From NCBI GenBank assembly GCA_000697055.1, contig JNDT01002051.1, forward strand, positions 1 to 64,000: 64,000 bases of DNA. The letters run 5' to 3'. This document shows, in pieces, positions 1-49,279 of this stretch. The translations under genes and the position numbers were made by a program. The stretch's first letter is position 1, and the number at the start of each line of letters is the position of its first letter. Origin of the DNA: Saksenaea vasiformis B4078 (lineage: Eukaryota; Mucoromycota; Mucoromycetes; Mucorales; Saksenaeaceae). The notes below the pieces were generated by a model. The model made no database searches. It worked only from the letters and a program-made list of their open reading frames with translations, and was not told the DNA's origin.

Positions 1-645
1 AACCAAATTATAATTTCCTAGTATGACATAGTTAATCCTTGCCACCGCAGACATACTACTCAAGCCCAATTTGTGCCGCTTGAGAAGTATTTTTACGTTG
101 ACGAGTAGGAAACGTGTTCAAAGCACTGAGATAAATCTTTCCGTCTTTCCATCAATATGGATGTAGGTGTTTATAATTAATGCCTCATTCTCGCATAGGC
201 AACAATTCCTTTCAGTAATCGAGTTCTTGTCTTCATCCTTGCACTTTTATGTACCCATTCCTCCACGATCTCCAACAGTCAAACAGAAAGAAGCACTTAC
301 GGGTTTCAGACGATAAAACAGATTTTTACTGTTAAGATCATATTGTAATCTAACGTACATGTTTACAGCATACGGTTCGAGACTGTATCTGAATTTCGAT
401 CTACAGCTTAGAACATGTAGAGACCGCTATCAGCACTCTTGTTGCCTTCCAAGCTTCAAGTTTTCTTACGGAGCGGATCTTTTGAAATTAACGATAGGTG
501 CAATTATATGAAAATCTACAGTAAGTCTGTTTTGGCAGATTTTGTCTTGTCACAAAAAAAACACCGAATCAAAATGTTGTCTTCTTCCTTTTTTCCCCTC
601 ATCTCGCTTCTCAATTTTCTTTTCTTTTCTCTTCAAGAAGCCAAA
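1..645. other. Left-edge region without a supported gene
   Basis: I see no convincing gene here. The last 80 bases are strongly CT-rich, as in many fungal promoters or 5' UTRs, and lead into the ATG at 646. An open frame continues upstream of that ATG to 439, but its sequence looks like translated pyrimidine tract. Confidence 0.5.
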
Positions 646-855
646 ATGGATTGTTACGAATTTCAAATACACACACTGATCTGGGCAATGTTCATGCTTT
701 CGCTCACCGTATACACCGCCAAGGCTTATATCCTCAACAGAAAGCGCAAGAAGGCAGCTGAAAATGAACTGAAAGAAAAGATTACTGGAAAGGAAGAAGC
801 AGAAAAGCGTAAGAGTGCTTCCAACGTTCAAAGATCTGACAACCTCATATTTTAG
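646..855 (+). CDS. Small single-pass membrane protein, or alternative first exon of the Fanzor
   Basis: A 69-residue ORF starts at an ATG in a good fungal context (CCAAAATGG) after a CT-rich leader. Residues about 8-28 are hydrophobic (one predicted membrane helix) and are followed by a basic, Lys/Glu-rich tail. I recognise no family. Inside it lies a good intron: donor GTAAGA at 809, branch-like CTGAC at 836-840 and acceptor TTTTAG ending at 855. Splicing 646-808 to 856 continues in frame through the Fanzor ATG at 864. The unspliced message would instead stop at 853-855, only 8 bases before that ATG. So this is either a separate small protein, an upstream ORF with a 5'-UTR intron, or the true N-terminus of an 824-residue Fanzor. 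The sequence does not decide between these. Confidence 0.45.
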   Translation: MDCYEFQIHTLIWAMFMLSLTVYTAKAYILNRKRKKAAENELKEKITGKEEAEKRKSASNVQRSDNLIF

Positions 856-863
856 TGCTTCGA

Positions 864-3426
864 ATGGTATGCGCAAGCTGCGGTCAGCAGGGACATCGAG
901 ATCGCCAGTCCACGAAATGCCCCAACCGGGAGGTAAAAGGTGCGTGATAAACTTTATCATAATGACTCGTTGGCTAAAATAACCTCTGCTAGTTGGCGTA
1001 AAACGCAAACGAGGGCCGGAACAGCAAGCCGAAAGTTCTAAGAAAGCAAAAGGGCAAGGCCGCAAACAAAAGCAAGCCGACACAAGGAACGAGTCCTTTG
1101 TCCCCAAGCCATGTCCCGCATGCGGTTCTTCCACGCACAGAAGTACAAGATCGAAGGATTGTACTGCTCACAAGAAGTCGACAGAAGAGATTTTGGAACA
1201 ACGTATAGGGAAAAAAAGGGAAATGTATACAAGAAAGTGCACTCTGGACGCAGTTGTCAGAGATCCTCATCGAGATCGATTTTGTGAAAGCACATTGGAA
1301 ATTTCTACGTATCTTAGGCTTGTCGTATCAAGAACACAATTGTTCGTTAATCAATTCATCTTGGATCACGATATCATACCGCCCATTTGCTTTACCCAGA
1401 ATTTCTTTTATTCTGTCATGAAACTTGTCGTCGGTAGGCCGCTCACAACCACCAATGCAAAAATGCTGCCAGATCTTCAAAGCACTTGGGAAGCATTCGT
1501 GAACAACCATCCTTCCATGACGGAGAAGCCACACACCAAGTTGAGATCTTCCGACGTACTTACAGAAGCATGTGTATTACTTGCAACTGCATATACCAAT
1601 AATATAGTCGAGAACTTTGAATCAAGAATATGTTCCTTTGTAAAGTGGAAGTTGTCCGCATCGTTTCCAGTATGTATAGTATTCATGTAGGCACACATCA
1701 AATTGACTACTGTTTGTAGGACGTTAAGAAAGCTGAAGCGACGGCGATTGCATGCAAATACGCTTTTGAACGTATTGGAGGGGGTGCTCCGGAATGGACC
1801 AGTACAGTAGAACCGACGTTACCTCTTGTAGCTATTGTTGACAGCATCTGTGATGATCTAGAGGCATTGGTTCCAAAGCCTGCGACGCAACAGAGCATCT
1901 CAGCTTCCCCTGGCACATATCTACCAGCTATGAAATACATTTTGTCTTGTTATGGAGTAGAAAACCAGATGGAGACCGCCTCACAGGAAGATTCTGATGA
2001 TATACCCTTGCCAAGACTGTTTTCAATTTCACCGAAACCTAGCGCAAAATGGCGGTTCATATCCATCAACGCTGAACTACTCGCTAGTCTGCTATCGTTG
2101 GAACCACCAAAGGATCCAAGTGATTATCCTCGAATCTTTTTCGAAGTATTTGACTTCTCCCATTTTGGTTTTAACAGGTATGATATATATATATTAGTAT
2201 CAGTTTATAAGGCCCATATATTCACATTTCCACAGTTGGGAATCGTTCACTCAATGTCCCAATGGCCAGTTTGCTGGTCGGGTCCTCAGCGACGGTTATG
2301 CAGTCAACCTAACTTTCTCAAGAAAAGCAAGAGATGCACTGCCAAGCACGGACATCGAGCTGGACGATTTTTCTCATCAAGAGATTGAAAACCACTTTGA
2401 GCCCTGGGCATTGGATCCGGGATTAAATCAAGTTTATACGGCTACGAATGGAAGCGGTGGGCAATCGCATCAGGTGCGACGTATTTCGACAAAGGAATAT
2501 TACGCTATGACTGGTTCAACAAGAAGAGCAAAGCAGCTTCAACGTGAAAAAGATAGAACTGGTATCACCCAAGTGGAGACAGAGCTGGAAAGCTGCAAGA
2601 CTTCATCATCAGAGAACCATCAGTCATACGTAGCAAGTTTTCTGCATAACTTTCAAACGCTAGCAAATTTTTATGGATCCCGCATGGCTGAACGACGATT
2701 TCGAAATTATCAAGATGTCCAGAGAGCTGAAGAGGAAATGGTCAATATCCTTGTGAATGGGGGAAAAAAGTATTCAAAAAAACGACGAAAGAAAACGAAG
2801 CGTAATCGAAACAGGCGAAAGAAAGCGACTCTAGAAGAAAAGAACAAAGGAAGAACAAATGGCAATCGAGGTCAGTAAATTAGTGCAGATGACAGAAAAT
2901 GATATACTAATGATAACCTTGTTTATAGCCCAAAAGAGTCGGCAGTTCGTTCCATTCACAGTAAACCGTGTCCCAAGAAGAAGAAATGGTATCGTGCACC
3001 GTTTGCAACAACTTCCGGGATACCATTAGTTGTATTCGGCTCAGCGATGTTTGGTGCATCTGGTCATGCGTCTATGAAAGGGAAGAGACCTGGAGTAGTC
3101 AACAAATGCTGGCGGATGTTGAAGAGACGTGAAAGAGCAGGTGAATTAATTGCTGTGACCATCGACGAATTCTACACCTCACAGGTAGGCTGTCTATAAT
3201 TTGTCCTATTCTCATACATTGTCCTTAGATTTGTCATGCATGTTTGCATCGAGATTTAACGAAGGTGGTAACTTCGGACGGCGTATCGCACCATGGTGTG
3301 TCAGTCTGTAAAAACTGTCATACACTGTGGCAACGGGACGTGAACTCAGCAAAAAACATGTACTTCATTGCGAATTCGATCTGGTGCGGGCATGGGCGCC
3401 CAGAACAATTCTGTCGGCAACCATAG
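864..3426 (+). CDS. Fanzor (eukaryotic TnpB-like RNA-guided DNA endonuclease), intact
   Basis: The model is join(864-939, 993-1669, 1720-2177, 2236-2874, 2929-3184, 3229-3426), 767 residues, with all five junctions in phase and no internal stop. Two CX2CX4HX7C knuckles (Cys3-Cys19 and Cys66-Cys82) open the protein, followed by a basic linker. RuvC-I is LDPGL with Asp464. RuvC-II (VVFGS, residues 651-655) lacks the usual Glu; instead Glu697 lies in IDEFYTSQ, 44 residues further on, as reported for Fanzors. A zinc ribbon (Cys704, Cys707, Cys729, Cys732) precedes RuvC-III QRDVNSAKN (Asp739). A Lys/Arg-rich tract around residues 590-610 may serve as a nuclear signal. Established knowledge: Fanzors use an RNA guide made from the 3' end of their own locus. 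No transposase was found next to it, and no terminal repeats could be fixed. Family assignment is strong; activity is inferred. Confidence 0.9.
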
Positions 3427-3560
3427 CCATAAAAAAAATCGCCATTACGAATATGGTTTCTTTGTTTGCCTTCGAGCAAACAGGGATTTAGATATTTACG
3501 TTTTACGGTAAGCTCAGGTCTCTAAAAGTGCACATCTCTAACTATCTCTAGGTTTCTCTT
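3427..3560 (+). ncRNA. Candidate guide-RNA (omega/fRNA) region after the Fanzor
   Basis: Known Fanzor and TnpB guide RNAs overlap the ORF 3' end and the adjacent noncoding DNA. Just after the stop codon there is an A-run and then a 7-bp hairpin (TGTTTGC, loop CTTCGA, GCAAACA) at 3463-3482. This is position-based inference plus one hairpin; the guide boundary cannot be seen from the sequence. Confidence 0.3.
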
Positions 3561-3589
3561 CCTCAAATTTTATTTTGGTTGTATAATTT

Positions 3590-3710
3590 GTGGTAAGTAA
3601 ATCATATCAATCAATGGAGATACAGCCTTCTTACTTTATCTTATGCAGACGCAAAATTGATCTCGAGCAGCGCAAATTCTTACACAATAAACAGTATGTC
3701 GAAGTTTAAT
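3590..3710 (+). repeat. Possible third, tail-only copy of the degenerate repeat
   Basis: The stretch from the ACGCAAAA motif through GAGCAG to an AATAAACAG polyA-like signal resembles the tail of the repeat at 4633-5190, by eye around 60-65 percent over about 55 bases. It is placed directly downstream of the Fanzor. Like the other copies it has a GTAAGT..AG pair just before the tail. The homology is weak and judged by eye. Confidence 0.25.
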
Positions 3711-4632
3711 TCTGGCTCGTGTATGACTGTCATTGTGTGTCGGTGCATCATTTTTGAGTTGAATATGACCGCCGTCGTTGTTCATGCAAGTCAATAGCTT
3801 CAGTTTTCAGAAATGCCGCGTGAGTAGGAGATATATATGAGGCTAGCGGTGTTTGATCTGTCGTTGTTTACCGACATCACTTCACTCATATCTTGTATTT
3901 TGTGCGTCCCCATTTATTTTACGACATCTGACAACTATAAGAGATAAATATATAAACCAAACTAATAAAACATAACAATAAAATAGAGATAAACGATAAA
4001 AAAATAAAGAAAACGAAAAAGGTGGGGTTTGCAACTGCTTTAGTTTTTGATATCAAGCTGTCGCGACTTTTCGCATAAACTGGTAGATGAGAATTGCTGA
4101 TGACATTCTAAAAATATAGCAGGATGTTCTTACGTATCAGATACCGAAGATTCTTGCTCACATACCTAACCTTTATCTGTGAATGAAGTGCCAATATATG
4201 AAAATCCAATAAAAAACGTGATTGCAATCTGCAAGTATACAGGAGAAAATATATGACGAACTCAAAGTCAAAATATAATGACACGTTCAAGTCAAACAAA
4301 TTTTGCGCCGGAAGGCGATACGTCTTGGTGCGGAGAAGTCGTTCATTTTGCGTTAATCCAAGGAATAGTTTGCGCCTGGGTAGCCTCAGTTTTGCATTGA
4401 CGTACTTGGGTGATGTAGTTTCACGATATCCCGTCGGAGGTAGTAAAAACGTCTTGAGATAAGGAAAATGATCCGTTGAAACAAGTAGATTGTTTTTACA
4501 TTGAGGTAATTCAGTGATGGATTTCCCAATATCGTGTCGGAGGGAGTAAAAATGTGTCGAGATAAGGACAGGTTTCATCCAAAATGATCCGTATTTAAAG
4601 GCACGCACGAGCCATTTTTAAATTCTTTGGCT
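3711..4632. repeat. A/T-rich intergenic region with a degenerate direct repeat
   Basis: No gene is supported. 3935-4020 is strongly A-rich on the plus strand. Two related stretches, 4412-4479 and 4516-4598, share the order GATG..TTTC..ATATC.TGTCGGAGG.AGTAAAAA and GAGATAAGGA..ATGATCCGT. They look like an old tandem duplication with a step of about 104 bases. Confidence 0.4.
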
Positions 4633-5190
4633 TTGTTTTTCAAAAAGGCGTCCCGGTAAGGATGTCGATTTATATCCATACAGGATTATTCATGTCTTTA
4701 TGTTTATTCTTTAGCCTATATGATCTCTGTCCCGAACCATCTCGGCTGTGGTGTAGCCCATTTTCATCATCGAGTAAGTAAAGGTTGTCATACGCAGCCT
4801 CGCTCCAACTTCTTCCAACTTCCACGACAGAACCTCGCCAGACGTTGCATCGCTTCAAGTCCTCTGCACGGCGTTAACATCCAAACTGGCGCGCAAGCAT
4901 CAGTATAATCTCTCCTGCCGCCATTGGATGCCTATGCCCCTCGGGGTAAGTGAATTGGCACCAGTATCTTTCAGTTACTAACCGTGAATGAATTTTTATG
5001 CTGCTCGAATAAATTTTGCGTCCATCTAGGGACCAAGTTGATGTAAGTGGCGTATTACTTTATCGCCAATTTATATACTGATAACCTCATATTCCATCTC
5101 TTCCTTAGCGCAAAACTGGCGCCTGATGGACGCAAGATTTACATAGAGCAGTGTAAAAATGCATTCAATAAGCAGTGTTGCTAGCTCGGA
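4633..5190 (+). repeat. Degenerate repeat, copy A
   Basis: It shares clear blocks with 6734-7230 in the same orientation: TCCCGGTAAGGATGTC near the start, TTCCGAACCATC-like and GCTGTGGTG blocks about 100 bases on, GGTTGTCA..ACGCA at about 150, TTGCGTC at about 385, and TTCCATCTCTT..TTAG at about 455. Several GTAAGT..AG pairs suggest a spliced, perhaps noncoding, ancestral transcript. No coding frame survives. The two copies flank EMG1. Confidence 0.5.
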
Positions 5191-48459: not shown

Positions 48460-49279
48460 GATGGGGGACGATATTGTCGAGGACAGCAGTTTTCGATGGC
48501 AAGACCGTTCAAGATCTCATATTTATACAGACTTCTGGAATGAATGAAAAGGAGCTTCAAACTGATATAGATATGGATTGCCTAAATAGTGGGCTTTCTC
48601 CTTGAGCAGTTATCTCTCTGCTCATGTCCTTAATCGAGAGATTAACCGTGAGAACATTTGATTGGCAGCCGTTGATCTGGAGGCTATTGACATAAGCAAC
48701 GTGATTTCCTGCAAGGTCGTACAAAGTTTTTCAGATATTGCTGCCTCTATCACTTGACATTATTGTATGCAAGATACTACAAAATCGATAGCTACGGTCC
48801 GTATGAAGCACAAAATTTATCAGAAAGATAGTCCTTGTCTATCGATGTAGTTTGAAGGTATGAATCATGCTTACACAAGTCCTTTTTAGAGACCGCCGTT
48901 GAGTTACTTTAAGTATCGGTAGTATCCTAGAAAAGGAAGAACGATGACTCGGCCGAAATTTTCAGACTTCCTGAACACATTGAGAGACCTTTCTCAGGAA
49001 CAAATGCCTCATGATGGATTTCATTTGCCTGTCACCTTAGAGTGCCGTTGAATATCGTTACAGAGTAAATTCTTACAGTGTTGTTAGCTAACGTATGACG
49101 ACGTATTCTGTGGCGGCTTCGTATCTCATCTGTGTACTTATCGTGTAACAATTCGTAAGCACAAATCCAACACATGCAGTCTCTTGGTCAAAGATAAGAT
49201 CGATTTATGTAAAAGAAAAAAGTATGAAATTTGAACAAGCCATATGCATATGTGTGTGACTTATTGATCCTGTACAATT
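48460..49279. other. Intergenic region between ODC copies 2 and 3
   Basis: It holds the promoter of copy 2 and the 3' flank of copy 3. No gene was seen. Confidence 0.5.
48520..48527 (-). promoter_or_regulatory. TATA box of ODC copy 2
   Basis: TATAAATA on the minus strand, 61 bases before the start codon, matching the position in the sister genes. Confidence 0.55.

Follow-up and report, generated by a model that had tools for sequence, protein, structure and literature searches.

A TA-inserting transposon copy of Saksenaea vasiformis carrying a Fanzor1 gene with a candidate membrane-anchor exon

The Fanzor gene and its transposon

The window analysed here comprises the first 64,000 nucleotides of contig JNDT01002051.1 of Saksenaea vasiformis B4078, read on the forward strand. 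It begins at the end of this contig (C485 in the 38.7-Mb, 666-contig genome) and contains the gene and the right end of a DNA transposon (Table 1). The gene product is a Fanzor1, a predicted RNA-guided nuclease, carried by a family of DNA transposons that appear to target TA. The initial annotation had joined six exons (864-939 and the last five exons of Table 1) through GT-AG introns into a stop-free frame of 767 residues, and this frame was recovered. The proposed start at ATG 864 was not: the N-terminus very probably lies in an additional exon at 646-808, and the protein then has 824 residues. The additional exon is deduced from a phase 1, in-frame splice, its presence in relatives, purifying selection between lineages and a low hydrophobic moment.

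Table 1. Predicted features of the transposon copy and its Fanzor gene
Feature	Position	Strand	Description
Left internal part of transposon	1..645	+	contig starts within element; 98.6% match to C582 from base 1
New first exon	646..808	+	MDCYEFQ-IHTLIWAMFMLSLTVYTA-KAYILNRKRKK...; basic/charged helix behind a predicted hydrophobic anchor
Intron, phase 1	809..855	+	47 nt, GTAAGA...TTTTAG; position and phase common to relatives
Exon 2	856..939	+	N-terminal zinc finger CASCGQQGHRDRQSTKC; contains the initially proposed ATG 864
Exon 3	993..1669	+	second zinc-finger motif and part of N-terminal half
Exon 4	1720..2177	+	initially exon 3
Exon 5	2236..2874	+	initially exon 4; RuvC-I Asp in LDPG (D464 = D521 of 824)
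Intron, two possible donors	2871..2928	+	2871 (donor of sister copies, frameshift here) or 2875 (frame kept here)
Exon 6	2929..3184	+	FG at usual RuvC-II position; alternative Glu in IDEFYTS (E697 = E754), aligned with SpuFz1 E541
Exon 7	3229..3426	+	four ribbon Cys (761/764/786/789 of 824), RuvC-III Asp (D739 = D796, aligned with SpuFz1 D606), stop
Candidate guide-RNA (omega-RNA) region	3436..3696	+	two hairpins right after stop, compensatory changes; conserved to element end
Right terminal inverted repeat	3650..3696	+	47 bp, ends CAG-TA
Flanking DNA	3697..3892	+	dispersed repeat, elsewhere element-free (...G-TA-TGTCG...)

The assignment of the protein to the Fanzors, made in the same annotation, is well founded, as the homology is far beyond chance. 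In the profile search suggested there, PF07282 matched across exons 6-7 at 3.2e-9, above the Pfam cut-off; the match to the NCBIfam TnpB model was far under its cut-off (5.8e-8; 32 of 100 bits). Searching the PDB with the single sequence (E up to 1) retrieved GtFz1 (1.7e-4) and SpuFz1 (1.2e-3) and no other match, and profile A2, constructed from eight sequences of the window clade, matched SpuFz1 at 6.3e-11 across two stretches. The Asp of DPG, the Glu and the last Asp are aligned with SpuFz1 chain residues 777, 935 and 1000, which we equate with D383, E541 and D606 by one constant offset of 394. D383, E541 and D606 are the catalytic, metal-binding residues of SpuFz1 in cryo-EM work (PMC11423790). 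Protein searches with residues 420-560 and 695-824 only yielded no match.

The initially listed Asp464, Glu697 in IDEFYTS, Asp739 and four cysteines are all present. The LDPG motif is at 521 of 824. Glu697 sits 44 residues past F653 of FGSAMFG, and exactly six residues separate it from the first ribbon Cys (E754 and Cys761 in the 824 numbering). This displaced RuvC-II Glu had been highlighted as a rearrangement. It is real but not special, because DPG and a Glu located six residues ahead of the zinc finger are the published norm for Fanzors, and the pair has been called their fingerprint (NAR 2023, PMC10711439). Its novelty was therefore rejected. In a tblastn alignment of 20 related loci of the same genome, DPG is kept in 18 and the Glu in 15; the remaining loci are broken or uncovered there, and one of the five loci lacking the Glu has no coverage at this residue. 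None of the fetched loci has one open frame, 200 aa or longer, with both the DPG and the Glu motif. The Fanzor features found thus include DPG, the alternative Glu, the four-Cys ribbon with the RuvC-III RD, homology to an experimentally shown Fanzor, and location in a eukaryotic transposon with defined ends, the left end of the window copy being off the contig.

Related genes are abundant in the genome. With 150 of 388 candidates scored, the PF07282 matches number at least 137, and with 59 of 748 scored, there are at least 115 exon-level matches to the window protein. By eye, the PF07282 matches fall in several very different lineages, and many are at contig ends. Loci L001 and L002 form a separate lineage with QNEAYTSKSCTCCG...DRDLNGARNI, which looks closer, again by eye, to TnpB/Fanzor2 than to the window clade.

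The mobility of the element, which had been suggested from the gene, finds support in nearly identical copies dispersed through the genome, in its inverted repeats, and in right-flank copies that lack it. Where they match, copies C582, C450 and C209 share 96.6-98.6% identity with the window. Approximately 2.4 kb of the left side, absent from the window copy, is present in C582 and C450, reaching the left end there. When the left end is aligned with the reversed right end, 37 of 49 columns are identical, and none of 500 shuffles was equally good. Eleven right ends, not counting the altered ones of C582 and C450, diverge immediately past ...AAACAGTA or its variant; GTA is found in nine of them, GTG in C9 and GCA in C577. 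All five resolved left ends (C315, C34, C582, C450, C252; those of C217 and C102 were excluded, as the boundary is not clear) start with G-TA-[CT]AGCTTTTTG. The right-flank repeat has six other matches on five contigs, and the three contigs inspected all have G-TA-TGTCG and no element. As the left flank is off the contig, this comparison of filled and empty sites is one-sided. The ends and the empty flanks fit insertion at TA preceded by G, and this G may belong to the motif required by the nuclease next to its target.

TA duplication together with inverted repeats agrees with Tc1/mariner elements, a GTA duplication of 3 bp is an almost equally good fit, and the element is not classed as Tc1/mariner. 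A 9-bp duplication of the MuDR type has been described for some fungal Fanzor elements (PMC3627910). It was rejected here, since the flanks of C582 and C450 have, by eye, at most TA or GTA in common. The left part of C582 contains only short ORFs, and the nine examined have no Pfam match above cut-off. Thus there is no support for a further gene on the left side of the element, although a spliced gene could be missed in this way. Transposase domains DDE_3 (157 matches) and DDE_1 (34 matches) occur elsewhere in the genome, and such transposases could act in trans.

Near the left end of C582 (about 48745-48990) there is an insert of approximately 240 bp with a 14-15 bp direct repeat, GGAAGCGACAACAG, on either side (by eye); it probably represents a further small mobile element. 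Just within the left ends of C582, C450, C315 and C34, a strong hairpin (GGCGGC..TTGGGG / CCCCAA..GCCGCC) was observed by eye. At C443:44769-45197, a first-exon match and a right-end match lie approximately 200 bp apart, and this copy is probably internally deleted and non-autonomous. Window positions 4317-5176 are approximately 65% similar to the region behind another zinc-ribbon match (L022), and the end near 5187 resembles, by eye, the right end of the window element. Thus the right part of a related element seems to be situated 1.5 kb downstream. The genome search with PF07282 (150 of 388 candidates scored) gave no zinc-ribbon match for this region.

The upstream exon

The upstream frame starts at 646, encodes MDCYEFQIHTLIWAMFMLSLTVYTAKAYILNRKRKK... 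and has its stop at 855. The intron 809-855 joins this frame in phase to the zinc-finger exon, and therefore ATG 864 becomes an inner Met. Of 29 related loci of the same genome, 16 have the same exon arrangement in frame, with a hydrophobic stretch preceding basic residues; one of these (L077) has no Met at the usual exon start. Three loci have the same intron and a shifted upstream frame, and in two of them another donor would keep the frame. The arrangement is not visible in the remaining ten: three (L042, L044, L045) are damaged by a frameshift, by a deletion plus a stop, or by loss of the donor, C577 (L066) has the exon and the zinc finger side by side, and six are unclear. Unless the exon is spliced in, an in-frame Met before the first zinc Cys is absent in 14 of 23 loci; the other nine, including the window and C582, have some Met there. 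A genome search with the exon-1/zinc-finger peptide of C354 found the exon at 14 places, window included: 11 adjoin a zinc-finger match (within approximately 130 bases), two span the junction, and one (C443) is alone. The Fanzor-like protein BZG36_01106 of Bifiguratus adelaidae joins the basic helix to the zinc finger and therefore supports the splice, not the hydrophobic part. By eye, no such exon was seen in the stretches read of two distant Fanzors of the same genome (C565, C33), and therefore it may be limited to one clade.

We grouped the exon sequences by eye, not by a tree, into lineages A to F, the window belonging to lineage A. Their comparison shows purifying selection on the exon between lineages. 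The pooled pN/pS is 0.40 in A (n=5), 0.41 in B (n=6), 0.16 in D (n=4) and 0.23 in E (n=4). Changes at codon positions 1/2/3 sum to 71/49/125 over ten pairs, which have sequences in common and are not independent; in one of them (L036-L083) the changes are 6/1/1. The two sequences of lineage C differ by three nonsynonymous and no synonymous changes. Some lineage-B pairs have values above 1, and the exons of the window and C582 differ by four nonsynonymous and one synonymous change (dN/dS of approximately 1); both argue against constraint at short range.

We read the first exon as a putative membrane (signal) anchor. In the window it encodes a hydrophobic stretch of approximately 20 residues near the N-terminus, followed by basic residues. 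In ten exon peptides from six lineages, the best 18-residue mean hydrophobicity is 0.50-0.86 and the moment is 0.05-0.34. The net charge before the stretch is -3 to 0 (negative in nine of ten), and that after it is +1 to +5 (positive in all ten). By the positive-inside rule, such a charge pattern points to a single-pass anchor with the C-terminal side in the cytosol. On the Kyte-Doolittle scale, where the usual transmembrane cut-off is about 1.6, lineages D (2.27-2.39) and E (1.79-1.84) are clear, B (1.53-1.77, with an Arg within the stretch in five of six peptides) and C (1.43-1.58) are moderate, and lineage A, that of the window, is borderline (best 19-residue mean 1.09-1.57). As a crude baseline, among the 245 window ORFs with 45 aa or more, 29 attain 1.4 within their first 46 residues, two of them with a basic cluster behind. 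Below threshold, the upstream frame of the window matches COX6C (E 0.021) and COX14 (0.044), which are small mitochondrial proteins with one helix. Among eight other exon peptides, that of C582 alone matches COX6C (0.073), and the other seven match nothing.

Two other readings of the upstream frame have to be weighed. It could be an upstream ORF, or encode a small membrane protein of its own, with the Fanzor starting at ATG 864. The stop of the frame eight bases ahead of this ATG agrees with such a reading, as does the in-frame Met that the window and C582 have there. However, most loci (14 of 23) lack an in-frame Met ahead of the zinc finger, the place and phase of the intron are common to 16 of 29 loci, and the helix and the zinc finger are joined in the Bifiguratus protein, so that a separate frame is improbable. 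The other possibility is that the exon is spliced in and the stretch is not an anchor but a helix that is buried in the protein or binds RNA or protein, or else a mitochondrial targeting sequence that is cleaved off. The COX6C and COX14 matches, the borderline hydropathy of lineage A and the Arg residues inside the lineage-B stretches all speak for it. On the other hand, the hydrophobic moment is low, and the charge pattern recurs although the lineages have little sequence in common there. We consider a stretch of this kind somewhat unlikely.

For the signal anchor, the broader suggestion is that a Fanzor clade became membrane-tethered, six lineages keeping an exon that would place the nuclease at a membrane such as the nuclear envelope or mitochondria. 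We give this about even odds. To our knowledge, no TnpB, Fanzor or Cas12 enzyme has been reported to have a membrane address. As judged by titles and the beginnings of abstracts, none of the papers retrieved deals with a Fanzor bound to a membrane. If the whole clade is anchored, the DNA within reach would be limited, which suggests that location may serve to control the nuclease and touches on the wider question of the role of Fanzors for transposons and hosts. It would also mean that spliced Fanzor starts are easily missed, so that constructs made from annotated genes may miss the native N-terminus.

State of the copy, candidate guide RNA and mechanism

The copy had been described as intact. 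This is doubtful, because near the end of the RuvC-I exon it is one base short of all four sister copies (C582, C450, C209 and C191). The frame of the sister copies needs donor 2871, and the relatives C628 and C552 have the same phase in our reading of the alignment. In the window, donor 2871 leads to a stop after residue 705 of 824, ahead of the RuvC-II Glu, and donor 2875 alone keeps the frame. At position +5, donor 2871 has G, as do introns 809, 940, 1670, 2178 and 3185, whereas donor 2875 has A. Without use of the second donor, the window copy probably yields hardly any full-length nuclease, or none. Given the missing base and the donor pattern, a fully working, intact Fanzor, as initially proposed, is rather unlikely. 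What speaks for it is the in-frame splice form via donor 2875, the chance that the missing base is an assembly error, and dN/dS below 1 outside the first exon against the four copies (0.66, 0.40, 0.45 and 0.13). These values were computed in the frame of the window, so that over approximately 15 codons, from the missing base to the splice site, the frames compared are not the same, and values below 1 are expected for a family under selection during its spread. At the other extreme, the copy could be a plain Fanzor remnant with chance features, produced by ordinary transposon decay. The abundance of PF07282 matches in the genome agrees with this, and three sister copies are visibly broken (C582 by a stop codon, C450 by several lesions, C209 by a deletion and a lost donor); C191, visible only from codon 532 on, has no stop in that part. 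However, the new exon is under selection between lineages, and its changes are distributed over the codon positions as given above, including the overlap of the ten pairs and the one exceptional pair. A mere remnant is thus very improbable.

The conserved 3' region probably encodes a guide RNA, as suggested by its conservation and predicted pairing. The last 212 bases of the element (3485-3696) match 22 places in the genome, and these bases retain 83-84% identity where the proteins (C571, C631) are only 58-66% alike. Alignment A1 comprises 13 of the 22 places; C464, having no motif match, was left out. In the consensus of the 13 sequences there are 42 predicted pairs, four of which have changed on both sides, three of them in the two hairpins after the stop codon. 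These compensatory changes follow the split of a few subfamilies and therefore represent one or two events each. The fold energy of the single sequence is no better than that of shuffles (z -1.04), and scans of the window against Rfam and for tRNAs gave no hit. The GTAAG motifs at 3508-3512 and 3593-3597 are conserved in 12 and 13 of 13 right-end sequences, respectively, with no common acceptor sites. Introns in this region were rejected, since the acceptor AGs of the window are absent from the sister copies.

The reading we prefer, with a probability of roughly 0.6, is that of a TA-transposon copy with a membrane-anchored Fanzor1, a guide RNA at its 3' end and a transposase acting in trans, whose full-length product is probably scarce. 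The signal anchor would leave the short acidic N-terminus lumenal and the nuclease in the cytosol or nucleoplasm. It would tether the Fanzor to a membrane, most plausibly the ER/inner nuclear envelope or the mitochondrial outer membrane. In other Fanzors, the RNA runs past the right end into the flank, and the flank is the guide. Similarly, the 3'-end RNA may read over the right end of this element, and the first bases of the right flank would then serve as the guide of the window copy. It would direct the nuclease to the emptied donor site, and cutting there could help the element to be copied back. The transposase would be provided in trans.

Comparison with known systems

Our literature search returned no work joining Fanzor and Mucoromycota by these names. 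PpFz1 of Parasitella parasitica is a Fanzor1 from another fungus of the Mucorales (PMC11423790) and has a cyclophilin-binding insert; no chain named PpFz1 was among the PDB matches, either with the single sequence (E up to 1) or with profile A2 (E up to 0.1). The one named match of the protein search, BZG36_01106, has 45% identity across 74% of the query and shares both N-terminal zinc fingers and the basic helix. It differs in that its annotated start has no hydrophobic stretch and its Fanzor part stops before RuvC-II. The search that yielded it scored the 7999 candidates with most words in common and is a poor guide to the spread of the protein. The public record (P0001) fuses this truncated Fanzor to a P-type H+-ATPase, which is probably a gene-merging artefact.

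In GtFz1 of Guillardia theta (PDB 9CER), another Fanzor1, the alternative Glu and the zinc ribbon align with the window protein. Its third catalytic residue is Asn (PMC11423790), whereas the window protein has Asp. In SpuFz1, the Fanzor1 of Spizellomyces punctatus (PDB 8GKH), the whole RuvC triad aligns, with DPN in place of DPG. Its element, SPu-1, resembles the window element in having inverted repeats, here of 33 bp, and putative TA duplications, and encodes a protein of 633 aa in one ORF, unlike the spliced window gene (PMC3627910). In the solved SpuFz1 construct, the start PPKKKQKLERLKKLD after the tag is not hydrophobic, in contrast to the new first exon of the window gene.
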